Assembly: GCA_963971225.1 (NCBI GenBank)
Contig: OZ020270.1
Span: forward strand, 21,835,689 to 21,899,688
Reading direction: 5' to 3'
From: Melieria omissa
Taxonomy: Eukaryota > Arthropoda > Insecta > Diptera > Ulidiidae
Length of the DNA: 64,000 bases
Shown here: positions 1,679 to 19,981 of the stretch, piece after piece
Numbering within the stretch: position 1 is the first letter of the stretch
How the letters are laid out: every line of letters starts with the position of its first letter
Position numbers and translations under genes: made by a program
Notes under the pieces: generated by a model
What the model was told of the DNA's origin: nothing
What the model saw: the letters and a program-made list of their open reading frames with translations, nothing else
Databases searched by the model: none

Positions 1679-1739
1679 TTTCGTAATAGAAAAATATATG
1701 AGACAAAATTTGTGTGAAATGAGTATTTCAAGGCCTACT

Positions 1740-4193
1740 CTATTTAACGGCATTTTTAGATTAAAAAAAAATGTATGCTGCGAGAAAATTACGTTACAAA
1801 GTGTGTACTTTCTTTTCGATACAGTCCTTAATTTAAGACCCTCAAATATTAAAAAAAATGAACTATCCACTGTGAGCAATACAGAAGTTAGTTTAGGTAG
1901 CTTAGGTGCAGATATTATTGTGCTAGGTGTGGAAGATTTTGTTCCACAAGAGATTTCATCCGAAAATGAACTAAAAGCGAGCGTAATCTCTTCAGAAGAG
2001 TTTGCTTCCTCGGACGGGTCTCTTAATTTAGAGGAATGCAAAGGCACTTCCTGTAATTTAGATTCTCTTCCTTCGGTTTCACAACGAAGAAAAGAGAATT
2101 CAGTTTCATCTTGCGGTGTGCATAGTCAAACCGCAAGATATTTAAGTGAAGGGACCCCTAGGAAAAGAAAATTGTTAGCAGAAGTTAGGTACTTGCGCAA
2201 TGAGGTGAAACGATTAAAGAAAAAGAATCAGTTGCAGGATATAGAGTTGCGGGAATGTAGGGAATTACTTGATTTGTCTGTCCGAAGTGATTATACACAA
2301 AATTCCGATGAATATCTAAATGAGCTATGTAGTTAACTTCCTTCACATGTTGCGTTGTGTTTAAGGAATTCGCTAAGAAATAATAAGCGCCTTGTTAGGG
2401 GTTGTCGATACGACAACAATGTAAAAACCATAGCTCTGGGGGTATATATTCTATCACTCATTGCGTATAGGAGCTTAAAAATGTCCTTGAATTGGCCTAG
2501 CGAACGAACTTTGTAAAAGTTCGTTTCAGGTTGGCCCCATTCCCCTGGCTGCAATTCTAGCAGCATTAAGGCTTTGCAATTCAGAAGTCGTGGCTTCACT
2601 GAATTGCAAAAATTCGTCTCAATTTCATGTAACGAAATGTCCTTAAAGACGCACCTGCAGTACATTAGAAGTACAGACTGCATTGTCGGGCTGGAAGACT
2701 TCGGCGATGAAAACCGCACTTCCAGAACGGCAAACAGTGTCATGACAATTATGATTCAAGGCATTGGTGGGGAGCCTTGGTCTCAACCACTAGCGTAGTT
2801 CTTTGGACTTGGCACTTGCAAGGCGCAACTTTTGAAAAAGTACATTTTTGAAGCCATTACGCAACTTCAAAAAATTGGCCTTCATCCTTGCCATTTCGTC
2901 TGCGATCAGGGGAGAAATTTTGTTAATTTTGCTAACCTGATAGGAGTTTCCCCTGATCGACCATATTTTTTGGTTAACAATGAAGAAATCGTGTTCTTTT
3001 GCGATTCTCCTCATCTTCTTAAAAGTGCGCGAAATTGCCTTGAGAACAGTAAAAATGTTATTTCATTTCATAACCGCAAAGTGAGTTGGGACGATATTGT
3101 CCATCTGCGCGTTGGCTCGTATAGAAAAAAAAAAAAAAATAACGCAGATGCGGTAATTGATTTGAAATGCGTACCTAAATTAACTCCTCAACATATTAGG
3201 CCTACAGTTTTTGAAAAGATGCGTGTGCGATTAGCTGCTCAGGTGTTCAGTAACACTGTAGCCTCAGCAATGTTCGCACTCAATAGCTCTGGTAAAGTTC
3301 CTCCTTCCAGAGCTGCTTCTTTCCTAAACACGGCCGAATATGCGTTATTTTTCAATGACTTATTTGATATCTTCAATAGTAGTAGCATTGTTTGTACCCC
3401 GGTTTTGCGAAGTGCATATTATGGTTGTATGGACCAAATAAATTTTTTGAACCAAGCCGAAGCTTTACTAAAATCCATTAAAATTTGTGATAGAGAAGGT
3501 AAAATTATTACGAATACCTTCTCTTACATTAATGGATGGCTTCAAAATATAAGTGGCTTGCGACGATTGTGGCGCACATTGTCACAGAAAGGATTCTCCG
3601 GACTGATGACGAGGAAACTTTGTCAAGACGTACTGGAACATTTTTTTGGGACGATAAGAAGAGGGGGTGGAAACAGCAAACGTTTGGGTCTGCAATACAT
3701 AAATTTAGTTAAAAAGGGGAATTGTGAGCCATCACCAATAACATCCACTAGTTTGTCCGCAAATGCAGTGCAAAACGTATGCAGCGACGTTTTGGTCCAG
3801 GATAGCTCTTGGCAAACTTTTCAATGCTTGTCAAGACCTGGAAATTCAGTTTTTGAAAATATACAAGCTGATATACATTTAGACTCATCCATTTTTTTGA
3901 AAAAAAATGCTCTTTCGTATGTATGTGGCTATATATATTTAAAATTTTATAGACTCCATAATTGTTTGGAGCCATTGCCCTACTTTGGAGATGAAGTAGT
4001 CAATGATGACTTTTTGTTTTGCATTGAAAAGCAATACGATAAGTGTTGTCTTGTGCGGCCCCCAACACAATTCGTAACCTTCATTTCCAATTTAAATAAT
4101 CGCTTTTGTGAGCACTTCGACTCTCTGTGTCACTTAATTGGTTTAAGTGAAGCTCTTTTGGGCAAAATGGGGGATATAAAGCCCTCTTCATAA
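1740..4193 (+). pseudogene. P-element/THAP9-like transposase, broken by three stops
   Basis: All recognisable parts are in one frame from about 1740 to the stop at 4193, interrupted only by TAA 2334-2336, TAA 2514-2516 and TAG 2796-2798. In order: an acidic/Ser-rich region, a basic coiled coil (RKRKLLAEVRYLRNEVKRLK, about 2160-2220), and the catalytic region. The motif around the first acidic residue reads CNEMSLKTHLQY with Asn (2631-2633) where P transposases have Asp. The second acidic site is intact in HFVCDQGRN (Asp at 2904-2906), and the Glu is intact in QDVLEHFFGTIRRGGGN (Glu at 3636-3638). P/THAP9 transposases bind GTP and cut at 8-bp targets. The N-terminal THAP zinc finger is absent here but its first exon is present in copy 2. 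Some stops could lie in unrecognised introns, but the homology reads straight through them. Confidence 0.82.
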
Positions 4194-4563
4194 GGATCAG
4201 GACATATTTTTCAATAAAAACTTTTAATAAGGAAGTGAATGTAAAGAAATTTACAACACTCAAGTGCCGTAAACTTTTACGTGTTACACACGTCTAAGAT
4301 GAGATGCACTTCCTTTTGGGGCGTCCGTCTGTTGTCCGCTATTGTCTGCTAGTTAGGATTTCGAATATCAGCTTGTATATCATTTAAAACTATTTTTATT
4401 CAATAGTGTCGGTCCGACGTTCTTAAAATTCAGGGTGCCAACATTGTTACTACTAATTAATTTCATTTGCTAATTTTCCAATTAATTTGCTTATTATAAC
4501 TTTCTCAGGACAATTTCAAAACACAAAAAATTTTATTTTTTCCTTTCCCACCACTTTGTTGTC
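4194..4563 (+). other. 3' region of P-like transposase with poly(A) signal
   Basis: An AATAAA at 4213-4218 follows the stop codon by about 20 bp and is a likely poly(A) signal. The stretch from about 3836 to 4563 is repeated in inverted orientation at 17506-18245 (copy 2). The two diverge exactly after CCACCACTTTGTTG at 4563. Confidence 0.7.
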
Positions 4564-4636
4564 TAGATTTATATATGCTTAAATGGATAAGTTAACTTAA
4601 CTGTATATATCTTTTTTATCTAATATATAAATTATA

Positions 4637-6361
4637 TCACTACATAGTATAAAGCAAAGTCGCTGTCTGTCCCTATGTATGCTTAAATCTTGCAACGGTT
4701 ATTTAAGCGTTTTTTTTAATTGGATAGAGTGATTCAAGAGGAAGGTTTATATGTATAATACATGTTTGTACGGCAGGTGGGCGTGGCACCTCCCATACAA
4801 CCTAAATTTTTAATATGGTATATCTTCGGAATTAAAAGTCGAACAGCATTGAAATTTAGTACAGTGTCATGGTGTAGGCGTTTCTTTTCATCGGTAAAAT
4901 TTAATGGGCGTTGGACAAGGGGGAGTGGCACCGCTCATACAACTCAATTCTTTAATATGGAATAGCTCCGAAATTATAAGTTGCTCAGCATTGAAATTTG
5001 GTACAGTGTCATGGCGTAAGCGTAACATTCCACCGGTAAAATTTAGTGGGCGTTGGATAAGGGGCGTGGCACTTTTTAAATCAAGGTGTAACTTTTGAAC
5101 TATAGCATTCACATCAACGACACTCAGTATAAACTAAGGATTTGGTCGTGTCCTTCGGCAGGGGGAATAAGGTGAATTTTGGACAAGGGGGCGTGGCGCC
5201 GTCCATACAACCCAACTTTTTGATATGGAATATCTTCGGAATTATAAGTCGCTCAGCATTGAAATTTTGTACAGCGTCATGGCGTAAACGTGTTCCACAA
5301 ATAAAATTTAATGGGCGTTGGAAAGGGGCGTGGCACTTTTTAAATCAAGGTGTAACTTTTGAACTATAGCATTCACATCAACGACACTCAGTATAAACTA
5401 AGGATTTGGTCGTGTCCTTCGGCAGGGGGAATAAGGTGGATTTTAGACAAGGGGGCGTGGCACCGCCCATACAACCCAAATTTTTGATTAGAAATATCTT
5501 CAGAATTATAGGTCGCTCAGTATTGAAATTTGGAACAGTGTCATTATGTAAGCGTGTCATTCGACTGGTAAAATTTAATGGGCGTTGGACAGGGGGCGTG
5601 GAACTTTTTAAATTCCGGTGTTACTTTTGAACTATAGCATTCACATCAACGACACTTGGTACAAAGTAACGATTTGGTCATATCCTTCGGCATGGGAAAT
5701 AGGGTGTATTTTGGACAAGGAGGCGTGGCACCGCCCATACAACCCAACTTTTTGATATGGAATATCTTCGGAATTATAAGTCGCTCAGCATTGAAATTTG
5801 GAACAGTGTCATGGCGTAAACGTGTCGTTCCACAAATAAAATTTAATGGGCGTTGGAAAGGGGCGTGGCACTTTTTAAACTCCGGTGTAGCTTTTGAACT
5901 ATAGCATTCACATCAGTGAAACTCGGTATAAACTTATTATTTAGTTGTGCCCTTCGGCAGTGGGAATAGGGTGGATTTTGGACAAGGGGGCGGGGCACCA
6001 CTCATGCAACTCAAATTTTTAATATGGAATAATTTCGGAATTATAAGTCATACAACACTAAAATTTAGTACCCTGTTATCTCATACATGAGTCATTCTAA
6101 TGACACGATTTGATGGGCGTCAGACAAGGGGCGTGGCGCATTGTTTGTGACCCAAATATTTTGCTGAACTTTAAGTAGCACAGCAATGAAACTAAGTACG
6201 AACCTACCATTTTCCCTTCCGACGGACGGGATGGTGCGTGTATTGAACAAGGGGGCTTGGCACCGCCCATATAACTTAAATCTATATATATATACAAGAA
6301 AGTGACTGTATCACACTCAAACGGACCGTTTGGGCGAGGCGAAGTTTGCCGGGTCAGCTAG
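4637..6361 (+). mobile_element. Non-autonomous Helitron
   Basis: The 5' end is TCACTACATAGTATAAAGCA and the 3' end is CAGCTAG, matching the TC...CTRR rule. The element sits between A (4636) and T (6362) with no target duplication, as Helitrons do. Near the 3' end a CAAACGG-A-CCGTTTG palindrome (6318-6332) and a short GGC...GCC stem could form the terminator hairpin. There is no Rep/helicase coding capacity; the body is almost entirely tandem repeats. It lies inside P-superfamily copy 1. Confidence 0.72.
4775..6290 (+). repeat. 265-bp tandem repeats inside the Helitron
   Basis: The landmark GGGCGTGGCACCGCCCATAC and variants recur near 4779, 4920, 5188, 5452, 5721, 5987 and 6251, giving a unit of 264-269 bp with a shortened first unit of about 141 bp. 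Each unit also holds AACTTTTGAACTATAGCATT and GTGTCATGGCGTAAGCGT-like blocks. Units 3-5 are the most alike, suggesting recent expansion in the middle. Small open frames through the array are a by-product of the repeats. Confidence 0.88.
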
Positions 6362-6694
6362 TATATATATATTTATTTATTATATATATTTATTTATTAT
6401 ATTATAAAAAATATTGTAAGGGTGAAAATATGCCTACAGGGGAACCGAGCACCCAAAAAACATCGGTAACGCGCCATTTTGCATACCCCTTGGGTGGTGT
6501 GGAAAAAGCAAACACATTTTCAGATCTAGACGCTGCTAGCAGTAGGATGCCGCCTGCCGATAGTTGTTATGGTTGTTGATTCGATGTCTGGTTTTGCGTT
6601 TGGCTGAATTAGAAAAGGGGTTTAATACAATTTAATACGACTTATGTGTGTATTGATGCTGTTCAATTGAACCAATCAAACTTTCGATTGCGTT
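6362..6694. other. AT-rich tract and likely 3' flank of the passenger gene
   Basis: Positions 6362-6412 are TATATTTATT repeats directly after the Helitron end. From 6420 the sequence is ordinary AT-rich DNA that would be the 3' untranslated region of the minus-strand gene ending at 6695. I see no convincing AATAAA on that strand and no gene of its own. Confidence 0.4.
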
Positions 6695-7528
6695 TCAATA
6701 GGGTGACACCGGTGCACCATAATGATCCTTGGCCGGCCGCCAGTGTACATGCCACTGCTGCATAGAGTAGTCAACGCGTTTACTGGTGCTGTAGTCGTTG
6801 AGCACACGTTTTGACGACGTGGACGATGAAATGTAGTCGCTAGTACTGCGTTTGCTGTAGTCATCGGTGCTTCGCTTTGCCGGCGCTGTAGTGTAATCAT
6901 CAATAGCTGGCCGCTTTGAGCTGCTGCTTGTGTTATCGTCGCGCTTGGAATAGTCCAGGCGTTTCGTGGCCGTTGTGTAGCCGTCAATGCCACGCTTGCT
7001 GGAAGTTGAGCTGCCATAATCGTCACGCTTCTTATCGTAACTGCCGAATAAAACCAACACGCAAATAGATTAATAGAATATTTTCAGAATATTTTTTTTC
7101 GGCCTAGGGAGAACAAGAGAATAGAATGTAAAACGTACCTTCTGGATGACACTAGACTTGCATCAAAACGCGGCGGTGGAGGTGCCCCGAAACGACTGTC
7201 AGTGCCTGCCGGTCGCTTGCGATCTGCCACATCCACATATCGTTTATCGCTGGGGCGTTTCGCCAAACGCTTAAGTGGATCTTCCCGTGCTTGTATAATC
7301 CTTCAATTGGTCGACGACAAGACAGAGATCCAGGCAAAGTGGTGGGGAAAAAGAAATTAAAGCGACGTATTAGATATGTCTTCATTAAATTCAGACTTAC
7401 TTACATTACAGTTCGCACATTGCATTTCGATGGAGCAAACCGAGGAATATGCTCCTGCTCCTGGATATAATGGCTACCCGGCGAATTGAATTTCCGCGAC
7501 TTGCTTCTGCAACTCGAGCGCAATATGG
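6695..7528 (-). CDS. Passenger gene of the P-like element: Ser/Tyr/Lys/Arg-rich protein, three exons
   Basis: Three exons are supported by matching splice sites and phases: 7528-7405 (donor GTAAGT), 7300-7139 (acceptor TTGAAG, donor GTACGT) and 7040-6695 (acceptor TTCGGCAG, stop TGA at 6695). Introns are 104 and 98 bp. A further upstream donor at 7581 (GTGAGT) would leave a 52-bp intron. The frame stays open through all three exons. The last two exons plus an ATG formed across the 7405/7300 junction give 169 residues; no earlier ATG is visible, so the true 5' end is unresolved. The product is basic and low-complexity: KRPSDKRYVDVADRKRPAG, then APPPPRFDAS, then repeated DDY/KR blocks such as KRSTDDYSKRSTSDY. 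This resembles tails of nuclear RNA-binding proteins but I recognise no domain and assign no function. Exon 1 and part of exon 2 recur in copy 2 at 16131-16404. It may be a captured host gene fragment or a second gene of the element. Confidence 0.6.
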
Positions 7529-8955
7529 CTACTTAAAAGAGAAAATACAATTTAAAAAAGTACGATTGATAGATACTCACCAGGTTTCACTTCTGCACTT
7601 ACCTTGTAGTTATAGGAATTATATTAATTTTTTATATTTAATTATATTAATTTTTAATGTGTTTCGTTGCGATATTTTGTTCCTTTTGAAAAATTTAATC
7701 AAAAATGACATTTCATTTCTGCATTGGAGGTGAAATTTGCACATTTTGGGGTAAAAGTGGTAAAATTATTATAAGACAGGGTTGAAATTTTTGCTATCAA
7801 TGGTGAATATAAAAATATATTTAAATAGAAAATGTTTGTAATGGTTATGATTTCATTTAAATTATTTCAGTTTATGCAGTCGCTTCATAGAAAATGAATA
7901 ATGAATGCAAAAACGTTCTCCTGAACACATTCATCATGTTTTGATTAAATCGTCATGTCGTGCGTTTGTAAATGAATAAAAACATATTTTTAATACTTAT
8001 TATGATTTATAAAGATGCACAAAATTACTATTACGTAAAATTTTTGCGGTAATTTAACAAAATAAACTTTGTTCTGGGCTTTTTACCTTGTACAAGAAGA
8101 TAATTACATTAATATTGATTCGGAAAGTTTATTGTTTTCATTATAAAATTATTTGTACGCAGGCAAAATCGAAATTAGTATTCAAATGTTCTCTATTTTA
8201 GTGAATTATAATAACAAGTACAGTGGACGTCCAGTATAACGAACTTCCCATTTAACGAATTTTCGATTTAACGTATGGCCAAATTTTTCCATTGATGGTT
8301 CTATATTACGACCAAAAGTGAAATTCGCTATTCGATATAACGAATATTTATGTTGTATTTGTTGTTTGTTGTTTTTATTCACATTCTTTACAATAACAAT
8401 GAATATTTGGTTTCGTCAAGTGAACAGTACCTCAATTGTTTTTGGTTTTGTTACGTTAAAACTTTCAAATTTACGTCACATTACCAACATTTTCAAATTC
8501 TGTTTTTTTTAGGGCTGTAAGCGCGATTAACGGTAAATAACACAAGTAGACGACCGCTCAACCGTTTTTAATTCCGCCTGGGCTCTAGTAGACCCCAAGG
8601 AACAGGCAGAAGGTTCGAAACTGAATATGTGAGACTTATATCTTTAAGAAGGATGGTTTAAAACAAAAACAAAAATCGTTCGGTTTAACGAATTTTTCGA
8701 TTTAACAAATTGGGGTTACAATATAAGATTCGTTATATTGGACGTCTACTGTATTGTATTTTTACAGTAATTGCCGAGTTATCTTAGGATATTTGATCTT
8801 CCAAATATTTTTTTAATACTTGATTGACATAGCAATCAGAAAAATAGGCATACATTTTGCTACCTAAACCAACAGAAAATGACGTTGGGGTAACACTACC
8901 ACATTCTGTACTTTGCGGCAACACTGCCACATTCTGTACCACTGACAGCTCGAAA
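7529..8955 (-). other. 5' region of the passenger gene, up to the element terminus
   Basis: This stretch holds the 52-bp candidate intron (7529-7580), a possible short upstream exon ending at 7581, and about 600 bp of AT-rich DNA before the pogo-like MITE (8221-8751). It then continues to the element's inverted repeat. It is repeated, inverted and without the MITE, at 15275-16054. A promoter for the passenger gene would have to lie here or in the terminal repeat; I see no clear TATA box. Confidence 0.45.
8221..8751. mobile_element. Pogo/Tigger-like MITE, copy 1
   Basis: The ends are CAGTGGACGTCCAGTATAAC and, inverted, CAGTAGACGTCCAATATAAC, flanked by TA on both sides (8219-8220 and 8752-8753). 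The terminal region repeats TTTAACGAATTTTCGATTTA motifs. It has no coding capacity. It lies within P-superfamily copy 1: the matching segment of copy 2 lacks it, giving an empty site. Confidence 0.82.
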
Positions 8956-8985
8956 AAAGAGTGGCGCTACTTAGGATTTACTTTG
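8956..8985 (-). repeat. 30-bp terminal inverted repeat of P-like copy 1 (right end)
   Basis: Read inwards on the minus strand it starts CAAAGTAAATCCTAAGTAGC and ends GCCACTCTTT. It is identical to both ends of copy 2 (15245-15274 and 19694-19723). Its length is close to the 31-bp inverted repeat of the Drosophila P element. Confidence 0.88.
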
Positions 8986-9284
8986 GTTATAGCCTCCCCG
9001 CAACACCAAAAACCACATGTATTTTGTTGGTAGGATCGTTTATCGCTACTGTCAAAATCAGCTGATATTTTCCGACGAAAGAGGGAGAAACTGAAAACAA
9101 ACAAAACTGATTGTTGCCAGATGGTGCTGTATTTGAGTGAAAAAACGGGAAAAGTGCTCAGGTCAGTTGTTTTCAGTCAGGTATTTTCATTTCAACCGAT
9201 GCGGCAACACAGCACACCTACGATTTTGACAAAAGCGATAAACGATCACCCGGTGGCTTGCTACAACCTTGTAGTTCAGCCATG
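8986..9284. mobile_element. CATGG-type MITE, copy 1 (interrupted by P-like copy 1)
   Basis: It is nearly identical to 12010-12313, including the internal 26-bp inverted pair beginning GATCGTTTATCGCTACTGTC, and it ends TTCAGCCATG at 9284. Its left part is missing because the P-like element begins at 8985. The remaining 5' part is expected beyond the left window edge. Confidence 0.72.
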
Positions 9285-9478
9285 GTTGAAATTGTAAAAC
9301 GATTTATATTTTCTGGCTGGCTTTTGTTCTTCTTCTATAAGCCTGCACGGCGTCGCATATTGCTCCTGAACTCACTGCCGACTGTAGTGTGCGCAAAATC
9401 ATAGAAAAGAAAATAAAATATGGCTGGCATGGCGACCTATATGATCACTACAGGCAATCAAAAAATAAATAATAAGTA
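9285..9478. other. Short interval, nothing recognised
   Basis: About 190 bp of unique-looking sequence between two MITEs. I see no coding frame, RNA gene or repeat. Confidence 0.4.
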
Positions 9479-10451
9479 AGGGAATTCTTGTAAGGTGCCA
9501 CCCCATAGCTTTTTTGCGCATAACTCGTTAGAAAATTAACGTATCGCCAATGTTAATATACCGTTGGAAAGAGAGTTAAAAGAGCTATGATCCAAGGTAA
9601 CACTTCATTTGAATTTTTTGTAAATGTGAATTTTACAGCCAATTTCCCATTTTACCGATATAGTACCACAAAACAATGAAAGAAGGGGGGAGGCACCTTA
9701 CAAAGAAAAAAAGGTGGCACTTTACATTTTTACGCCATTTTGGAAATCATTGTATAATTTTTTTCCTTTTACGATATGCTCGGATATCATTTCGGATTAT
9801 GAAAAAACCATTAAAAATTAAGTCCTACACTGATATTTACCTTAGTTTTTTACAAGTTTTTGGTTACTTTTTCACCGTAAGAAAAACCTTCAGTTTTTAT
9901 TTTTATGTTTTTTCTTAACCAAATTTGACACTTTTATTTACCCAGACCGTGTTATTGCGTCTGTTCCCTCAAAAACCACATTCAAATTGATGCTGACATA
10001 TATGTTATACCTTAAGTGACAATAGGAATTTTTTTTCTTGGATTGCCCCAACTCCAGTCGACTATTCTTTGTTAGCACCATTAGATTATGGAATTCGTTG
10101 CCCATACATCTTAAATCAATTACCAATAGACGCCACTTTAAGCATTATATCTTCAAACACTTTTCTTAACTCTGTCCTTCTCTACTTTTCGCACTATTCT
10201 GTTTTCCTTTTCTATCTTCTCTTTTAAATATTTAGATTGGATTCAAATATACTGTTAATAATCAATTTTTGTTAATCAATTGTATTTGTTGAGCTAATCA
10301 ATTGTTAATTAATAAGTATCAACTTGTGGCATGCAAAAGATGCAATTCTTAAATGCCGATGTTTTATAATTAATTAAATAAATAAATATAAACGTCGAAA
10401 TCGAGCAGGGGTGGCACCTTACAAAGAGTGGCACCTTACAAAGAATTCCTC
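9479..10451. mobile_element. MITE with GTAAGGTGCCACC ends
   Basis: The inverted ends read (A/G)(A/G)GGAATTCTT(T)GTAAGGTGCC on each side, flanked by TA (9477-9478 and 10452-10453). The motif GTGGCACCTTACAAAG recurs near both ends and again at about 9687-9725, so there are internal copies of the terminal motif. There is no transposase; the short open frame at 9676-9918 has no recognisable content. The TA flanks suggest Tc1/mariner mobilisation, but the family is not certain. Confidence 0.65.
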
Positions 10452-11976
10452 TAATCAATAAAAATGGAATTGGAAAGAAAAGAAAACGTTTTTATTACCC
10501 GTAATAATTTTCCGTCTCGTTCTTTGGAACTTTTCTTACGGCCCACATATAATGCTTGTTTAAAAGAACTAAAATAAGAAAATCTAATATTGTAAACTTA
10601 TGATCACATCATGCGCCATGGAATCATTCAGGTGTAGAACATTTAAACTATTTTTAAACGTAGGCATGCCGAAATAACATTTTTCTTATGACAAAATACT
10701 TGTCTTATTATTTCTTTATTTAGTGCTTTAGTAGTGCTTTCGCCCTATTGAAAGTCAATAGACCTATTAAATTATATTTTTCCATACAATCTTCTAACCC
10801 TCCGTTAGATGTCGATTAAAAAAAAAACAAAATTGAAACACGCATCTAATTATTTTTAATTTCAAGTGTTTCACGAATTTTGAAGTCCATATGCCTATCA
10901 GTTCATCTTTTTCGTAGTTTTCCCATATTCTCAAAATTGTAATCAAGCATGTGAAAATATAAACAAATAATTTTACTTCGAACTCGCCACGTAAAAATAT
11001 TTGCAAAAATTTTAAATTGGGATCAACCACCAAATTTTTAAATTAATCAAAGCATTGGCCAGCAAAAAGCCATACACCACAAAGATTCGATTGATGGTGA
11101 CATTGCAGCAATTTTTTCAGCAAAACCAATCGCAACACAAAAAAGCATACACACAATAAACGACAACACCAAAAACATTAGCGAATACCGAATCATCTTC
11201 GTTGAAACGACGACTTCGTTGCGCTTCGACGAAAAAGATCGCAAACTGTTGAGCGCGAGCAAATTTCGCAACCTATGCCTCCGCTCATCTCTTCCCGCCC
11301 GCATCAAAAAACACGCTTGACAAATTTTTGAAGATGCGTATTCTTTATATTGTATATTCTTTGGTCAGGCTCAGAGAGCAGTCAAAATAAGGGGTTGGCC
11401 CTTAGAGTTGCTTTTTTGTATTTGATCCTCAAACTGTAAAAACTGCTTTTGTGTAGGACAAATGTTATAATTAGAAGAAAATTCCTGTTTGTAGCAACAT
11501 ATAGTTTTATTAGAATACCACAAAGATAATTTGGTATTGATTGTTATAGTGTTGCTGAATGTCTTATAAATGTTTTGCCCATTCAAAAATAAAAATATAA
11601 TGTTAATTTCTATGGAAGAGTTTTTGATAATTTTTTATTTACGTAAAATCTTTTTCTAAATTGTTTTTGTTTTAAATTTTTGTTTAAGTTCCTTATTCTA
11701 AAATACATGCTACATTAAAATAAAGTTGTTTTATTTCTTCAGCACGCTGAACAGAATTAGAAAAAGAACATACAATTTCGCACAAATTGCTAACACATAA
11801 AATTTTCTATTTCAATTTATTTCATTCTTTCATTTGTATTCATTCCACAATATATATTATTGCGTATCATTCGGGTGTCATGGGCTATATTTTGCGTATA
11901 GGTATTTTACAATGTTACCCAAATCTGTACGCAAAAGTATAGTTGTACAAACAATATCAACACTAATAGTAGGTTC
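10452..11976. other. 1.5-kb interval without a confirmed gene
   Basis: AT-rich, no recognised repeat or RNA gene. The only unusual part is the GC-richer island at 11047-11330, open on both strands and listed separately. Confidence 0.4.
11047..11307 (-). CDS. Hypothetical small protein with one membrane segment (weak)
   Basis: An 86-codon frame starts with two Met codons and a basic stretch (RAGRDERRHRLRN). A hydrophobic segment of about 22 residues follows (YSLMFLVLSFIVCMLFCVAI), then a short tail. The layout would suit the cytosolic end and anchor of a type II membrane protein. The opposite strand is also open over nearly the same span (about 11048-11318), so one of the two is a shadow. I recognise neither protein, and there is no splice or expression evidence. 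Confidence 0.2.
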   Translation of the reverse strand: MMRAGRDERRHRLRNLLALNSLRSFSSKRNEVVVSTKMIRYSLMFLVLSFIVCMLFCVAIGFAEKIAAMSPSIESLWCMAFCWPML

Positions 11977-12313
11977 CATGGTTCAATAATAAGGTTATAC
12001 CAGCATCGTATCGTATCATAGCATCCCCGCAACACCAAAAACCACATGTATTTTGTTGGTAGGATAGTTTATCGCTACTGTCAAAATCAGCTGATATTTT
12101 CCGACGAAAGAGGGAGAAACTGAAAACAAACAAGAGTGAGTGTTGCCAGACGGTGCTGTATTTGAGTGAAAAAACGGGAAAAGTGTTCATGTCACTTCTT
12201 TTCAGTCAGGTATTTTCATTTCAACCGATGCGGCAGCACAGCACACCGACGGTTTTGACAAAAGCGATAAACGATCAGCCGGTGTCTTGCTACAACCTTA
12301 TAGTTGAACCATG
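11977..12313. mobile_element. CATGG-type MITE, copy 2 (complete, 337 bp)
   Basis: The ends are CATGGTTCAATAATAAGGTT and, inverted, CATGGTTCAACTATAAGGTT. The 8-bp target duplication GTAGGTTC is perfect (11969-11976 and 12314-12321). An internal inverted pair (GATAGTTTATCGCTACTGTC and its partner) lies about 80 bp in. The 8-bp duplication fits P or hAT mobilisation; the CATG start leans towards P. Confidence 0.82.
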
Positions 12314-12714
12314 GTAGGTTCTTTATTCTCCAAAAAGAGCAACCGTTCACAAATAAGAGGGTGAAGAGAGACATTTAAAGCTGCCGCTCCCAGCCTGGCG
12401 TACCTCGTTAATATACCTCCTCCACAAAAATTTCAAACCCTCTGTGGTAGATGTGGTAGAAACTTGATTTTAGTGTGTCTTACAGTCAAACCTAAATTGG
12501 AGCGTTGAGCTTTGCGTTTTCTGACGCAACGCTCTCGCTCAGTGCGGCATACCGAAATTGAAGCGTTGCGTTGGAATTGTCAAAATCATGAAATGCAAAC
12601 AAATGTCAAAAAAATATCTGCTTAGTTGCCGAAAAACCAACAAACTATTATTATTTTGCAAAACTTAGCTCTTATTTGAATAAATTCCTCACAATTTAAA
12701 TCAAATCAAATATA

Positions 12715-13314
12715 GGGTGTTTTTTTTAGAGGTATATAACTTCGAATTGAAATAAAACACAAGAAAATCGTTTTAATGTCCATCAATGTGGCTTTATTGG
12801 AAGGATAATTTTATGCCATTAATGTTTAAATATGATTTCGGGCATGTGGCCGCCGCGGCTGGCTCGAATAAAGCCAATTCTACAGGTCCAATTTTCAGTT
12901 GATGGACAAAGCTCCAATTGCTGTGCACGGTGGCGAATCGATTCATTCGGGTCCTCTTCAACATTTTGCTCTACAGCGGCAATTGTTTCTTCGGTGCGCA
13001 CTGTTCGACGTCTCTGCGGATGCGTATTATCACATAGAGTAAACGTAGTGCGAAAACGACCCATGGTTAACCGAATTAATTGCTCTGATGGACGATGTCG
13101 ACCATAAAATGGACGGAGCTTGCGGTAAACTTCGCGAACTGAACCATTATTTTCGAAATAAATTTGCACGATTTGCAAGCGTTGTTCTTTTGTCAACCTG
13201 TTCATGATGAAATGGCAAACCAAACTGAACATAAATGACATTAGAGTTGCCAGATTTGACCACAAAATGCCAGTTTTATCTCTATTCGAAAAACAAACCT
13301 CTAAAAAAACACCC
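12715..13314 (-). mobile_element. Mariner-like internal deletion derivative
   Basis: The inverted ends GGGTGTTTTTTTTAGAGGT and its partner are flanked by TATA. The element keeps the first and last parts of a transposase gene and has lost the catalytic middle. This is a typical path from an autonomous element to a MITE. Confidence 0.83.
12819..13205 (-). pseudogene. Mariner-like transposase with catalytic core deleted
   Basis: The 128-residue frame starts MNRLTKEQRLQIVQIYFEN, the helix-turn-helix N-terminus of a widespread insect mariner-like family. It continues through RRTVRTEETIAAVEQNV to about residue 103. It then jumps to the family's extreme C-terminus (NWTCRIGFIRASRGGHMPEI). The whole DDD/E domain is missing, removed by an in-frame deletion, so the product could bind DNA at most. 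The frame is otherwise clean. Confidence 0.8.
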
Positions 13315-14591
13315 TATATAAATCACAGGCGTTTTTGTTTCTCGCAGCCAACTTCAACTGCTAACGCACTGTCAAAATTGGAAATTCAAATAGCTCAGCG
13401 TTAGAGTGTTTCAATTGCGGTTGGCCCCATACAATTTGTATGGGCATGAAGCAATTTTGACAGTTGCTTGCCGCTGACGCTCCAATTTAGGTTTGACTGT
13501 TATGCGGCCCATACACGTGCAATTTGTTGTACAACTGGACTCGGTTGTACACATAATCGCAACGTGTGTAGCACAGTTGTTCGTGTCGCACAACCGGTTG
13601 GATGAAAATCAAAATACAGTGGACGTCCAGTATAACGAACTTCCCATTTAACGAATTCTCGATTTAACGTACGGCCAAATGTTTTCCATTGATTGTTCTA
13701 TATTACGACCATAAGTGAAATTCGCTATTGGATATAACGAATATTTATGTTGTTTGTTGTTTTATTCATATTCTTTACAATTACAATGAATATTTGGTTT
13801 CGTCAAGTGAACGGTACCTCAATTGTTTTTGTTTTTGTTACGTTAAAACTATCAAATTTACGTCAAGTTACCAACATTTTTAAATTCTGTTTGTATGCAT
13901 TGCTGATAATTTTCACAGGATTTGTTTTGCGTTCGGTCGAATTTTTTCTTTTAAAAATTTAAATTTCAATAATCAATCAAGAGGAATTGCCAAATAGAAA
14001 AGTTTCCTTGCGGTAAAGAGGCAATCGCGCATCGAAGACTTTTTCACTGTACACACATAGCCATATTTGTATTTTGGAAATGCCTTTAACCTTTTGTTTG
14101 TCCTTTGCTCAAAATTGCGATCGCTGTCTTTTGGGGTTAGGATGACCCCAATCAAACGCTTATATAATTTAATGGCAAAACATGAAGAAATGTTACATAT
14201 ATTATAAATCACAAAAGAAAAGGGGAAAGCTCCGAAAAGTGTTTTTCTCGATTTGTTATTGGGTTGTAAGCACGATTAACACTAAATAACACAAGTAGAC
14301 GACCGCTCAGCCATTTTTAATTCCGTCTGGGGTCAAACAGACCCCAAGAGACAGGCAGAAGCAGTGATGTTAACTTTTTTTTTTAAATCCCTACGCGACT
14401 TGAAAAAAATCCCTACGCTTTCCAGCAATTTTTCCTACGAAACTCCCTACACTTATTTTCCAAGTATTTTTAATTTTTTTAATTTTTTGTTAATAAAAGT
14501 CGCAAAAGTAAAAACCATAACATTTATGAATTCTTTTAATTAATTTGCAACATGAAAACAATAAAACAAAGTTGTGCTTTGTACTGAGATA

Positions 14592-15082
14592 GAGCCTATT
14601 TACACGAGGGCTTTTCCCCCTGCGTTAAAAGTCATGCGTGACGAGTTTGTTGGCGAGAAGTGGTGAGAAGTCAGCGGGGTAGGCAAACACGCACGGTCAG
14701 CGAATTCCAGGGTTTTTTTTGACATTTGCTTTGCTGTTTTTCGCACTTTTCTTCAAATTTCAAACCGACCGGACGCTTCGCTAACAATTATATTTACATC
14801 TTCCCTATTATTTAAATTTGAGCAGTTAATAGCTATTTCAGTGACTTCTAAAATATTTTCAATAATTTCTTCTTTGTTTTAATCCATTTTTCTTTTAGTA
14901 ATGAGAATATCAAAAACTACGCGAAAATGTGAATGAAAGAAGATTGGCCGCTTAAACGTCCAAAAAGCCAAGCAAAGTTGCAAGTAAAAAGTCTTCATGT
15001 AAATGCATGAAGATTTACGCAGCAACTTCCAAAGAGAGTTGCAAAAAACGCAGGGGGAAAAAGCCTTCGTGTAAATAGGCTC
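14592..15082. mobile_element. MITE with GAGCCTATTTACACGA ends
   Basis: The 491-bp element has inverted ends GAGCCTATTTACACGAGGGC and GAGCCTATTTACACGAAGGC, followed by CTTTTCCCCCTGCG-like sequence on both sides. It is flanked by ATA (left) and ATA (right), a possible 3-bp duplication. No coding content. Confidence 0.75.
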
Positions 15083-15244
15083 ATACTATTTAAAATATGG
15101 AAACATGGAAACATAAAATAAAAAAATTGTGCTTTGCACTGAGATACAATTTCATCATATTAAAAAAATCAGTACAAAAATTACACAAAGACTAATTATT
15201 TATGGTCATACTACTCACTGTATGCCATTTTCTTAAAGTGCTGT

Positions 15245-15274
15245 CAAAGTAAATCCTAAGTAGCGCCACTCTTT
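15245..15274 (+). repeat. Terminal inverted repeat, P-like copy 2, 3' end
   Basis: It begins CAAAGTAAATCCTAAGTAGC and is preceded by the 7-bp target duplication GTGCTGT (15238-15244). Confidence 0.88.
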
Positions 15275-16404
15275 TTTGGCCGGACACTATTGGCAGTGTT
15301 GCCGCACAAGCAGTGCTACCCCATAACGATTTTCTGTTGGTTTTGGGAGTAAATTGTATGCCTAATTTTCTGACTGCTCTTTTCAATCAAGAAATAAAGA
15401 AATGTTTGAAAGATTAAATATCTTAACAAAACTGTAAAATTACTGGAGAAATACAATAGTTATTACCACAATTGATTAAAATAGACAACATTTGAATAAA
15501 ACTTTCAATTTTTCTTTCCTAAAAATAATTTCATGATAAAAACATAAAACAATCTGAATCAATATCAAGGTAATTTTGTTATTGTACAAGGTAAAATGCG
15601 AACGACAAAGTTTCTTGCAATAAATTATTTCAAAATTTGTGTGTTATAGTAATGTCGTGCATCTTCAGAGCTCTTAATACGTACTAAAAATATGTTTTTA
15701 TACATTTTGATTGGTAATATAAACTCACAACACGATAATTTAATCAAAAGATGATGAATGTGTTCAGAAGAACATTTTCGTATTCATTATTAAATTTCTT
15801 TGATGCGACTGAACTGAATGAAATAATTTTAATGAAATCATAATCATTACAAACATTTCCCATCTTAATACATTTCTATATTCACCATCGATAACAAAAA
15901 TTTCAACCGTGTCTTATAATAATTTGACCACTTTCACCACAAAATGTGCAAATTTCACCTCCAATGCAGAAATGAAATGTCATTTTTGATTACATTGTTC
16001 AAAAGGAACAAAATATCGCAACGAAACACATTCAAAATTAATATAATTAAATTTAATAAAGTGCAGAAGTGAAACCTGGTGAGTATCTATCAATCGTACT
16101 TTTTTAAATTGTATTTTCTCTTTTAGGTAGCCATATTGCTCTCGAGTTGCAGAAGCAAGTCGCGGAAATGCAATTCGCCGGGTAGCCATTATATCCAGGA
16201 GCAGGAGCATATTCCTCGGTTTGCTCCATCGAAATGCAATGTGCGAATTGTAATGTAAGTCTGAATTAAATGAAGACATATCTAATACGTCGCTTTAATT
16301 TCTTTTTCCCCACCACTTTGCCTGGATCTCTGTCTTGTCGTCGACCAATTGAAGGATTATACAAGCACGGGAAGATCCACTTAAGCGTTTGGCGAAACGC
16401 CCCA
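15275..16404. repeat. Inverted duplicate of 7252-8955 (terminal part of the P-like element)
   Basis: This segment matches the right-hand part of copy 1 in reverse orientation, without the pogo-like MITE found there. Similarity is high over the passenger-gene exons (nearly identical from 16060 to 16404) and lower towards the element end, with many small indels. The match stops at 16404, inside exon 2 of the passenger gene. Confidence 0.85.
16131..16404 (+). pseudogene. Truncated copy of the passenger gene
   Basis: The first shared exon (about 16131-16254, donor GTAAGT) and the start of the next (16355-16404, after TTGAAG) are preserved with the same phase as at 7528-7252. Exon 2 breaks off after LAKRP; the rest of it and the third exon are gone. 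A difference near the acceptor (TTTTAGGTAG here, TTTTAAGTAG in copy 1) allows an alternative acceptor here. Confidence 0.7.
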
Positions 16405-16547
16405 CAGTGACAGTGAAATATAAAACATTCAAAAACTATGTTATTTCGCTTTTATATTTTAATTTAAGTTGAGGTAAAAGCACCTGTTTACCGTATTGAT
16501 ATGGCGCTTATGAAGGTTTTGCTTAAGAGCGATATTCTGCAATGAAA
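16405..16547. other. Junction sequence before the satellite
   Basis: About 140 bp with no match elsewhere in the window, joining the broken passenger gene to the 143-bp satellite. Confidence 0.4.
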
Positions 16548-17505
16548 GGATTTGAACAAAAAATACTGTGCACATCTTACAGTTGCCTCATGTGGTGGTA
16601 ACTCCCATGAGGGTTATTTCTTTAGCGCCCGGCCGAAGGCCGGCCACCTGGGGAAAACTTAATGCCAAGAAAACTATGGCTTGGAACTATGGATTTAAAC
16701 AAAAAATACTGTGCACATCTTACTGTTGCCTCATGTGGTGGTAACTCCCATGAGGGTTATTTTTTTAGCTCCCGGCCGAAGGCCGGCCACCTGGGGAAAA
16801 CTTAATGCCAAGAAAACTATGGCTTGGAACTATGGATTTAAACAAAAAATACTGTGCACATCTTACTGTTGCCTCATGTGGTGGTAACTCCCATGAGGGT
16901 TATTTTTTTAGCGCCCGGCCGAAGGCCGGCCACCTGGGGAAAACTTAATGCCAAGAAAACTATGGCTTGGAACTATGGATTTAAACAAAAAATACTGTGC
17001 ACATCTTACTGTTGCCTCATGTGGTGGTAACTCCCATGAGGGTTATTTTTTTAGCGCCCGGCCGAAGTCCGGCCACCTGGGGAAAACTTAATGCCAAGAA
17101 AACTATGGCTTGGAACTATGGATTTAAACAAAAAATACTGTGCACATCTTACTGTTGCCTCATGTGGTGGTAATCCCATGAGGGTAATTTTTTTAGCTCC
17201 CGGCCGAAGGCCGGCCACCTGGGGAAAACTTAATGCCAAGAAAACTATGGCTTGGAACTATGGATTTAAACAAAAAATACTGTGCACATCTTACTGTTGC
17301 CTCATGTGGTGGTAACTCCCATGAGGGTTATTTTTTTAGCGCCCGGCCGAAGGCCGGCCACCTGGGGAAAACTTAATGCCAAGAAAACTATGGCTTGGAA
17401 CTATGGATTTAAACAAAACATACTGTGCACATCTTACTGTTGCCTCATGTGGTGGTAACTCCCATGAGGGTTATTTTTTTAGCGCCCGGCCGAAGGCAAC
17501 AAAGT
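16548..17505 (+). repeat. 143-bp satellite, about 6.7 copies
   Basis: The landmark CGGCCACCTGGGGAAAACTT recurs at 16641, 16784, 16927, 17070, 17212 and 17355, a spacing of 142-143 bp. Each unit has a GC-rich palindromic core (GGCCGAAGGCCGGCC) and an AT-rich remainder. Units differ by a few point changes. Its right edge (ending GGCCGAAGGC) joins directly to the 3' end of the P-like transposase region. Short open frames here are repeat artefacts. Confidence 0.93.
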
Positions 17506-18245
17506 GGTGGGGAAAGGAAAAAATAAATTTTTTTGTGTTTTGAAATTGCCCTGAGAAAGTTATAATAAACAAATTAATTGGAAAATTAGCAAATTAAATT
17601 AATTAGTAGTAACAATGTTGGCACCCTGAATTTTAAGAACGTCGGACCGACACTATTGAATAAAAATAGTTTTAAATGATATACAAGCTGATATTCGAAA
17701 TCCTAACTAGCAGACAATAGCGGACAACAGACGGACGCCCCAAAAGGAAGTGCATCTCATCTTAGACGTGTGTAACACGTAAAAGTTTACGGCACTTGAG
17801 TGTTGTAAATTTCTTTACATTCACTTCCTTATTAAAAGTTTTTATTGAAAAATATGTCCTGATCCTTATGAAGAGGGCTTTATATCCCCCATTTTGCCCA
17901 AAAGAGCTTCACTTAAACCAATTAAGTGACACAGAGAGTCGAAGTGCTCACAAAAGCGATTATTTAAATTGGAAATGAAGGTTACGAATTGTGTTGGGGG
18001 CCGCACAAGACAACACTTATCGTATTGCTTTTCAATGCAAAACAAAAAGTCATCATTGACTACTTCATCTCCAAAGTAGGGCAATGGCTCCAAACAATTG
18101 TGGAGTCTATAAAATTTTAAATATATATAGCCACATACATACGAAAGAGCATTTCTTTTCACAAAAATGGATGAGTCTAAATGTATATCAGCTTGTATAT
18201 TTTCAAAAACTGAATTTCCAGGTCTTGGCAAGCATTGAAAAGTTT
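17506..18245 (-). pseudogene. P-like transposase, C-terminal fragment (copy 2)
   Basis: The fragment encodes the last 120 or so residues (from RPGNSVFENIQADIHL to GKMGDIKPSS) and the same 3' region as 3836-4563, at very high identity. A few substitutions separate the copies, for example FVKRNALS here and FLKKNALS in copy 1. The catalytic part is missing: sequence of another origin begins at 18246. Confidence 0.85.
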
Positions 18246-18348
18246 CCTTCTGCCTTTCTTTATGGAAATGGAGTCTTTATTACCTAATGACTAACTCTTT
18301 GCCTTAAATTGTGCCAAATCTTTCGTTGAGTACTATCCCTGGTATAAC

Positions 18349-18654
18349 ATGCCTACGACTGTTCATAAATATTTAATTAATGGACCATAGGTCATAGCTC
18401 ACGCCTTGTTGCGAATCGGTGAATTATTTGAAGAAGCGAGGGAAGCGAGAAATAAAGATTTTAAGGCTTTCAGGAAATATTTTTCTCGAAAAAGTAGCCG
18501 AGAAAAAACCAACGAAGACGTTCTAAAAAGACTGCTTATAAATTCTGATCGCATTATATCGACAGAAATGAAGTTGCCTCATAAAGCAGTTACGCGCATG
18601 CCAAGGGAACCATTGGATTTGTTGATAATTGCGGAAGAAGAACGCGAATTATGA
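18349..18654 (+). pseudogene. Remnant of an unidentified insect repeat protein
   Basis: Reading from ATG 18349, MPTTVHKYLINGP is followed by TAG (18388-18390) and then an open run, VIAHALLRIGELFEEAREAR, NKDFKAFRKYFSRKSSR and so on to 18654. This has the feel of a conserved segment that recurs in uncharacterised transposon-like insect proteins (vHKyLIxG, IGxLxEEAxEARNKD, RKxSR), but I cannot name the family. It sits in copy 2 of the P-like element, on the opposite strand to the transposase, where the catalytic core should be. Confidence 0.4.
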
Positions 18655-19148
18655 TGATGATGATAACAATGGATGCGAAGGTGAAAGAGTGAATACGATG
18701 ATGATTCCGATAGTAATTAATAAATAAGCGAGGAATTCTGTATAATACCCTTTTGTAATTTTGCATTTTTGGTCATAAATAAAAAAAAATCCACTAAAGT
18801 ATGTTCAAATACATTTATTTTCTACTTCTTTATCTATAATTAACTAAACCTAATACTTTTTTCATGTCTTAGTAGTCCGGGTGAATTAATCGCCAAAATC
18901 GGCATGAATTACCCCAGTGTGGCACGGCGTAAATACGCTGTCGAAATACGTTCAGACGTTGCCTTGCTCACAATTCTAGCACAATAGGAATAGGAATATA
19001 TTTGTTTATAGCACTGGTAGTACTAAGAACTCGCGACATAGCAAACCGTTTGGCACTACGGATTTAAAAACACAACACAACAAAACAGCCTCCGGCGTTG
19101 GGCTAAATTAATTTAAAAAACATTTCAAATTACAAACAAATTACTTAC
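18655..19148. other. Interval between remnant and THAP exon
   Basis: It starts with a GATGATGATG run and continues as AT-rich DNA. The part next to 19148 would be the first intron of the P-like transposase (GTAAGT donor on the minus strand). No further coding match is seen. Confidence 0.4.
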
Positions 19149-19219
19149 AGCGTGGCCTCCCGCGGAAATCGATGAACACTTTCAGCTCCCTTGCAGCCGC
19201 AAACACACTTTCTAGTCAT
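19149..19219 (-). CDS. THAP-domain first exon of the P-like transposase
   Basis: The ATG at 19219 opens MTRKCVCGCKGAESVHRFPR, which fits the start of a C2CH THAP zinc finger: the Cys pair followed about ten residues later by the HRFP motif. It ends at a canonical donor, GTAAGT (19148-19143), so the rest of the finger was in a following exon now lost from this copy. THAP fingers are the DNA-binding domain of P-element transposases. The exon lies about 0.5 kb inside the element's 5' end and on the same strand as the C-terminal fragment, which supports its identity. Confidence 0.68.
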
Positions 19220-19693
19220 GATGCTGAAAAAAATATAAAAATACATGAAAATTTCTTTATAAAAACTTAAAAGTTGCCCATACTTACAAAAATTGCGTTT
19301 CGCCTTTGGAAATTCAAACAAGAATACCATTTGAATTTCACTACCAACTGACATTGACTTGTGGTGAATATATATAAGAAAGGCAGAGTTGCTGTTGAAT
19401 AAAAAACGAAATAATTTAAATTTGTTCATAAATTTTGGTAAAAACCAAATAATTTATGAGAATTTTAGTTAGCTTTCTTTTCTCTGGTTATACCAACATA
19501 AAAAGTAAGCGATTCCTTTATAAAATCGTCTTAAATTACGTTTAAGAAATTCATAGAAACCGCAATTTTTTCAGTATTTTTCACGTACACGCAATCCTGC
19601 CACTAGTGTCCGGCCATCGTGGTGAGCTCAGTTTTACACGTGAACAACAACAATTTGACAGTTCTTGTCATACAGAATCGACGCCTGGTTGTC
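19220..19693 (-). promoter_or_regulatory. 5' region of P-like copy 2
   Basis: About 470 bp between the inverted repeat and the THAP exon, expected to hold promoter and transposase-binding sites. The subterminal motif GGCCGGACACTAGTGGCAG lies at 19605-19617 and nearby, the inverse of the one at about 15281-15299. Nothing more specific can be defined. Confidence 0.45.
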
Positions 19694-19723
19694 AAAGAGT
19701 GGCGCTACTTAGGATTTACTTTG
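19694..19723 (-). repeat. Terminal inverted repeat, P-like copy 2, 5' end
   Basis: Exact inverse of 15245-15274 over 30 bp, followed by the target duplication GTGCTGT (19724-19730). Confidence 0.88.
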
Positions 19724-19981
19724 GTGCTGTTCTTTACATTGAAAATTTACACAGGTGATATCTTCGTCTTGTAAGTAAGAGCGCATTATACAAATTGAAG
19801 TCAAATTAGAATGTGGTAGTGCCGAAACATATTTGGCCAACTTTGTCATTTTTTCCCTACGCAAACAATTTTCGCTAAAATTCCCTACATGTAGGGAATT
19901 TTCCCTATAGTTAACATCACTGGGCAGAAGGTTAAAAACTGAATACGTGAGACTTATTTCATTAAGAAGGATGGTCTAAAA

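Follow-up and report, generated by a model that had tools for sequence, protein, structure and literature searches.

A captured piece of the host gene Saf-B in a multicopy transposon family assigned to the P superfamily in the fly Melieria omissa

The window considered in this work is a stretch of 64,000 nucleotides from the fly Melieria omissa (assembly GCA_963971225.1, contig OZ020270.1, forward strand, positions 21,835,689 to 21,899,688), which holds two copies of one transposon family, facing in opposite directions and called here copy 1 and copy 2. The passenger carried by this family stems from the host gene Saf-B, of which a piece was captured; it lies antisense to the transposase gene, in the interval that separates the transposase 3' end from the 3' repeat of the element. 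From its sequence the family is assigned to the P superfamily of DNA transposons, and by anatomy it is a Pack-TIR family, unusually amplified for animals: host gene DNA stands between the repeats and the parent gene is found elsewhere in the genome. Very probably, an ancestor belonging to the P superfamily copied the Saf-B piece into its interior, and the cargo is most likely a passive hitchhiker. A preliminary description of this DNA had proposed a P-superfamily transposon with a second, intron-containing gene on the opposite strand; its observation is confirmed in part, and its interpretation as capture of a host gene is supported by the parent Saf-B gene present in the same genome.

When the 169-residue passenger peptide was used as such in protein searches, three short unnamed proteins were obtained. 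Padding of the query with X brought longer proteins into the candidate range and gave 14 matches (best 4.4e-45), 11 of them named SAFB-like transcription modulator, one 'hypothetical' and two nameless; where the species is given, it is a tephritid fly, a stalk-eyed fly or a Drosophila. On these matches the parent gene is Saf-B. The other possibility raised at first, an unnamed accessory nuclear protein of this lineage, was rejected: the protein matches name Saf-B, the passenger is a truncated Saf-B tail without clear coding constraint, and 8 of 21 aligned elements miss the Saf-B-like end. Invertebrates have a single SAFB gene according to passages of PMC10901741. The parent gene of the passenger is located in the same assembly (C1:121398342-121404301), and its A/B intron has the same position as in the passenger. 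A second Saf-B locus (C1:63708868-63714827), 58 Mb off and in the opposite direction, was identical in 5/5 locus pairs compared and is either an assembly duplicate or a very recent duplication.

Passenger and parent can be aligned over two stretches. In the copies retaining the whole Saf-B piece, the first one comprises 649 bp at 90-91% identity (98 bp of intron followed by exon A, the A/B intron and part of exon B) and the second one 166 bp at 89-96% (the terminal part of the last exon with 93 aligned bases from the 3' untranslated region, UTR). The 582 bp of the parent between both stretches, including the B/C intron, are missing from the passenger, and the captured piece stops short of the AATAAA of the parent. 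Exons, first intron and UTR differ from the parent by about 3-11%, and the A/B intron does so at 21-24% of 98 aligned sites. This comparison covered 30 copies and leaves out 13 partial or mixed loci (L003 and L005 being one place) and six further duplicates. Because the intron is kept, the source of the piece was genomic DNA and not mRNA, and capture at the DNA level, as first proposed, is upheld. The claim that introns were retained holds for the A/B intron, which is at the parent's place, and fails for the proposed first intron (7404-7301), which is a hybrid with Saf-B sequence on the acceptor side and other sequence on the donor side. The captured exons match Anastrepha Saf-B from about residue 600 on. 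In that protein the SAP domain occupies residues 8-42 and the RRM domain residues 290-359; neither was found in the captured fragment by domain search, so the latter does not qualify as a functional Saf-B paralogue.

The spread of the cargo was followed in 42 distinct places, both window copies included, selected because they resemble copy 2 or Saf-B. They are a subset and not a census, and the search with the Saf-B gene listed further places outside it; 20 were retrieved individually and the rest are loci from genome searches with copy 2 and Saf-B. The search with copy 2 gave at least 83 matches (40 candidates scored), among which 26 end exactly at query position 1160, the start of the copy 2 filler, and 21 of these 26 begin at the repeat (positions 1-3). 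Saf-B DNA is present in 41 of the 42 places, the exception being a 5' half (L004). Both 30-bp repeats, with at most three mismatches per end, were found in 19 distinct elements, here termed both-repeat elements, and in all 19 Saf-B DNA lies between the repeats. An exact target duplication flanks 17 of them: it has 8 bp in nine (L009, L010, L011, L013, L016, L018, L022, L025 and L027) and 7 bp in eight (copy 2, C4:8152180, C4:72932526, L020, L021, L024, L049 and L051), and the duplications differ among elements. The remaining two (L015 and L019) show no duplication and have flanks in common. On the basis of the differing exact duplications around the 17 elements, the Saf-B cargo appears to have moved as a unit with the element, and the passenger lies within repeat-bounded elements rather than only beside them. 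The two duplication lengths are mixed within this one family, whereas P and Galileo mostly keep one length.

It had also been stated that the repeats enclose the passenger in both window copies; this is true of elements across the genome, and neither window copy shows a complete enclosed passenger. Copy 2 does have the perfect 30-bp repeats and the 7-bp target duplication described for it (GTGCTGT at 15238-15244 and 19724-19730). The 169-residue protein is absent from it, as the Saf-B piece is cut in exon A and followed by filler. Copy 1 ends in the same 30-bp repeat and presents the expected order of transposase (on the + strand), 3' region and passenger reading back; it could not be sustained as a bounded element, because its transposase is interrupted by in-frame stops and no 5' repeat was found for it within the window (30-mer search, up to three mismatches). 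The longer Saf-B piece is held by 17 other both-repeat elements, one of which, C4:8152180, retains about 500 bp of it only; copy 2 and C4:8152180 are thus the two in which the piece is partial. The segment shared by both window copies is no larger duplication running past the repeats, since the similarity in 7252-8985 stops at the repeat.

The assignment to the P superfamily draws on the transposase and on the ends of the element. The open reading frame 2799-4193 of copy 1 matches PF21788, the GTP-binding domain of P/THAP9 transposases (61.4 bits, cut-off 24.8, 1.4e-16); the RNase H halves PF21787 and PF21789 were below the cut-off (0.0036 and 0.0037), and the copy 1 transposase found 75 homologues in a protein search. 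The transposase remnants of copy 2 are the gene 3' end and a THAP-like first exon (from 19219), with foreign DNA between them; the THAP-like peptide (19219-19147, 30 residues) was recognised by eye and has no Pfam match. The inverted match between the ends of copy 2 stops at 30 bp, and long terminal inverted repeats of the Galileo type were not found in it. The terminal 30-mer occurs three times in the window (up to three mismatches) versus 0.00 expected from 100 shuffles, and a search of viral contigs for the 30-bp repeat and the transposase gave none. The family includes internally deleted copies: 16 of the 19 both-repeat elements are 2.4-3.6 kb long.

Regarding the history of the family, the 3' terminal regions vary most between lineages (copy 1 differs from the others by 20-27% over most of the region), and the exon-like block next to the Saf-B piece, the piece itself and the noncoding DNA beyond it are mostly 1-5% different, with up to about 11% around a deletion in the fused exon that characterises a younger subfamily. 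Older copies with a longer Saf-B piece are L038, L042-L047, L049, L051 and copy 1. As the 3' ends are far more divergent than the interior, the Saf-B-bearing interior would have been recombined onto different P ends. At the older intron-side junction (GTAAGTAAGTCTGAATT in copy 1 and L051, versus TTAGAAGTCTGAATT in the parent) there is an AAGT overlap, which fits template switching without proving it. The history would include the following events: i) repair or replication at the element would have switched template to the Saf-B locus, thereby making the copy, ii) 582 bp of Saf-B would have been deleted at or after capture, iii) the cargo would have been multiplied by cut-and-paste transposition with gap repair, iv) the interior would have been joined by recombination to divergent 3' ends. 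Since the cargo elements had lost the transposase body, they would have had to move in trans.

Several observations weigh against this history and against a passive cargo. The template-switch step is supported by a single 4-bp overlap, and the capture junctions are visible from one side only, a Saf-B-free member of the P family being unavailable. P transposase sequence was located in copy 1, in L026 and in fragments; the transposase body (1680-3813) has no match within any of the 19 both-repeat elements, which therefore look non-autonomous. Transposase DNA stands beside Saf-B only in copy 1, L026, L038 and L055, all of them without both ends, and no complete element with an intact transposase was found among the examined places; the main part of the long reading frame in L026 contains one in-frame stop, and the ends of L026 were not recognisable. 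Besides, most copies have kept exons A and B open, and some pairs of copies lean to constraint (for instance L022-L026, with 6 synonymous and 4 nonsynonymous differences).

A different route of capture would be the uptake of Saf-B as flanking DNA, by an element in or near Saf-B that used a far end, instead of an internal switch. Such end-bypass capture by a P element has been recorded in the laboratory (cited in PMC8277862), but the Saf-B piece is internal, with the transposase 3' end on one side and some 1 kb of non-Saf-B 3' terminal sequence on the other, and a later internal step would be needed; this route is considered unlikely.

The coding capacity of the passenger bears on whether it is merely carried. 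In an alignment of 21 elements, which leaves out copy 2, L003, L004, L028 and duplicates of places already included, 13 have both exons open up to the Saf-B-like end VSPY and 8 fail to reach it (frameshift, stop or truncation). Nine older copies were compared in addition to copy 1; eight of them have exons A and B open, and past the deletion these eight continue in a frame other than that of Saf-B. Substitutions were counted in six disjoint pairs (copy 1-L042, L043-L049, L045-L051, L009-L012, L018-L014 and L016-L017), chosen from 13 pairs after inspection of the tree: 28 are nonsynonymous and 17 synonymous (28/45), versus a nonsynonymous fraction of 0.739 expected without constraint (P = 0.09), and without the copy 1 pair the figures are 22 and 11 (22/33, P = 0.33). 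In the same pairs noncoding DNA differs at 36 of 2162 sites (about 1.7%) versus about 1.8% for coding DNA (45 of about 2500, by hand). Pairs outside these six lean either way: L022-L026 was given above, and L038-L047 has 2 synonymous and 7 nonsynonymous differences. The ratio of nonsynonymous to synonymous rates (dN/dS) against the parent, 0.23-0.41, includes the parent's own constrained branch. Strong constraint had first been suggested by the segment shared between copy 1 and copy 2 (7251-8985 and 16404-15245), where identity per 60 columns is 94-100% over 7251-7602 and 72-95% beyond 7602, towards the repeat. This reading was rejected because it is the 3' ends that vary between lineages, and because noncoding DNA lying past the passenger shows about the same similarity as the passenger itself. 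Judging from these comparisons, the passenger is most likely a passive hitchhiker; weak constraint may act on it.

Within the passenger there is, furthermore, a possible relation with transposon defence. SAFB proteins suppress transposons in mammals and flies: they bind the A-rich RNA of transposons, prevent the exonization of these elements and keep L1 in check; the elements they suppress include Tigger DNA transposons, and fly cells depleted of Saf-B showed a rise in L1 and long terminal repeat (LTR) elements (passages of PMC10901741). The link between the Saf-B cargo and this suppression is suggestive only. If the cargo served as counter-defence, a transposon with a Saf-B piece could interfere with Saf-B itself, either through a decoy (a truncated Saf-B tail whose transcript would be chimeric and spliced) or by supplying small RNAs that match Saf-B, and the capture would have been retained because it weakens Saf-B and helps the family to spread. 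The open exons A and B have splice sites in most copies, the exon-like block upstream has the same direction and joins exon A in frame (by hand), and a typical copy has 118 of 530 exact 25-mers in common with Saf-B exonic sequence (range 81-147). Nevertheless, the copies differ from one another about as much in noncoding as in coding parts, older copies have lost the frame after the deletion, 8 of the 21 aligned elements miss the Saf-B-like end, the fragment is devoid of SAP and RRM, and a host gene picked up by chance would give much the same picture. Both the retention of the capture for this reason and a role of the cargo in spreading the family are thus held to be quite improbable.

The arrival of element and cargo by horizontal transfer from another fly species is very unlikely. 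P elements are reported to cross species and the passenger DNA is about 9% different from the resident Saf-B, but the longer-piece copies show 11-15 nonsynonymous differences from resident Saf-B over 145 codons, whereas the Saf-B of 11 other flies reaches only 51-73% identity; acquisition from a distant fly was rejected, as the passenger is much nearer to the resident gene. That the copies are segmental duplications of one locus is scarcely credible and was rejected as the main cause, since the common flanks of L015 and L019 and the resemblance between L039 and L040 and between L045 and L046 stand against exact, mutually different duplications of 7 or 8 bp around 17 of the 19 both-repeat elements.

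Table 1. Features of the two transposon copies in the window (positions from the first nucleotide of the window)
Feature	Position	Strand	Basis or remark
Copy 1 P transposase gene, 5'-truncated	1867-4193	+	in-frame stops at 2334, 2514, 2796
Copy 1 noncoding sequence 3' of transposase, common to copy 2	4194-4562	+	sequence comparison
Copy 1 Helitron-like insert	4619-6358		about 268-bp tandem repeats; ends TC...CTAG
Copy 1 captured Saf-B piece, 3'UTR part included	6607-7398	-	identity to parent 91.2% (649 bp) and 89.2% (166 bp)
Saf-B intron part	7398-7301	-	parent alignment
Saf-B exon A	7300-7139	-	parent alignment
Saf-B intron	7138-7041	-	parent alignment
Saf-B fused exon B/last exon with stop	7040-6695	-	parent alignment
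Copy 1 exon-like block	7399-7602	-	98% identical to copy 2 16060-16256
Copy 1 3' subterminal region, divergent type	7603-8955		nested short element about 8217-8758
Copy 1 30-bp terminal repeat, element 3' end	8956-8985	-	repeat search
Copy 2, repeat-bounded element assigned to P superfamily	15245-19723	-	transposase remnants on - strand; repeats, target duplication
Copy 2 30-bp terminal repeat, element 3' end	15245-15274	+	repeat search
Copy 2 3' subterminal region	15275-16059		96-99% identity in younger copies, about 82% to copy 1
Copy 2 exon-like block, not Saf-B	16060-16256	+	donor 16079, acceptor 16126 (or 16130), donor 16255; splice sites by eye
Copy 2 Saf-B remnant: intron part and first 50 bp of exon A (16355-16404)	16257-16404	+	95.9% to parent, 148 bp
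Copy 2 filler: about 140 bp of other sequence, then 143-bp satellite array	16405-17497		array 16548-17497, 6.7 units
Copy 2 P transposase gene 3' end	17866-18245	-	99% to copy 1 3814-4193
Foreign open reading frame in copy 2, possibly Transib/RAG1-like	18391-18654	+	E 0.03, below cut-off
Copy 2 THAP-like first exon start, MTRKCVCGCKGAESVHRFPREAT	19147-19219	-	motif by eye; no Pfam match
Copy 2 30-bp terminal repeat, element 5' end	19694-19723	-	repeat search

In both copies the exon-like block has the Saf-B piece on one side and the P 3' end on the other, and its splice sites are in the Saf-B direction. The block of copy 2 has an intron of about 50 bp (48 or 52, with two candidate acceptors) with a good donor, and its open frame 16127-16254 is the one that joins exon A (both by hand). 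No Pfam or PDB match above the cut-off was obtained for it, and a zinc-knuckle match at E 0.01, below the cut-off, is not relied on; the block may be a second captured gene.

The P sequence of copy 1 can be traced back to about 1867 by comparison with L026, and at this limit it adjoins apparent Tc1-type DNA (by eye). The ends of the insert 4619-6358 are like those of Helitrons. The short element nested in copy 1 has a second occurrence at 13612-14361, both with ends like CAGTGGACGTCCAGTATAACGAA. In copy 2 the satellite array is on the other side of the transposase 3' end from the foreign DNA; its units are 98% alike, and similar DNA is found near L025 too. The sequence CCCACCACTTTG occurs in the window only at 4547, 7335, 16309 and 17500, that is, as one inverted pair per copy, and one member of each pair ends the shared stretch 3' of the transposase.

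The rest of the window contains other repeats. From 21559 to 63900 there are near-identical long units about 8.2 kb apart (spacings such as 8238, 8268 and 8264, and 12505 once), each with an open reading frame weakly similar to DUF4371/hAT transposases (E 0.00018, below the cut-off). The one widened interval is occupied by an open frame of 1011 residues (39851-42886) with a PF03372 endonuclease and a PF00078 reverse transcriptase, like those of non-LTR retrotransposons.

That cut-and-paste transposons capture genes is well established for plants and little documented for animals. Pack-MULEs and Helitrons capture and spread gene fragments as the Melieria family does; their transposases are unrelated, and Helitrons transpose in another way. 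The P superfamily is a long-used model for cut-and-paste chemistry, and natural capture of a host gene by it was not found in the open-access literature searched. A multicopy P family with a host gene is a natural system to study how elements acquire, trim, recombine and spread host DNA, and the nature of the cargo makes a conflict between transposon and host testable by ordinary RNA and small-RNA sequencing.

Compared with known systems, the Melieria family shares with the animal Pack-TIRs the cut-and-paste mode and the host gene DNA between inverted repeats. In the survey of Tan et al. 2021, as far as passages of PMC8277862 report it, 370 Pack-TIRs were found in 100 animals, 87.2% of them hAT and TcMariner; only four were multicopy, none of the 370 was in an insect reference genome, and the worked example had three copies. 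The Melieria family differs from those surveyed in that it belongs, by its sequence, to the P superfamily, resides in a fly and has 19 both-repeat elements. Passages of the same source mention Ssk-FB4 in Drosophila populations, assigned to MULEs, and cite Tsubota and Huong 1991 for the laboratory capture of flanking DNA by a P element. The statement that P elements are single-gene elements comes from the preliminary description. With the Drosophila P element the family has in common a transposase with a GTP-binding domain, terminal repeats of about 30 bp and 8-bp duplications, and with zebrafish P-like elements the internally deleted copies; unlike the Drosophila P element, it carries host gene DNA and shows duplications of both 7 and 8 bp (passages of PMC7776569). 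Galileo and 1360/Hoppel/ProtoP are members of the P superfamily too, and Galileo mostly has 7-bp duplications, with 8 bp in three copies. Pieces of other transposons join the ends of Galileo, whose long repeats are made of subrepeats, whereas the repeats of the Melieria family have 30 bp and the DNA it has acquired is a host gene (passages of PMC4168063).

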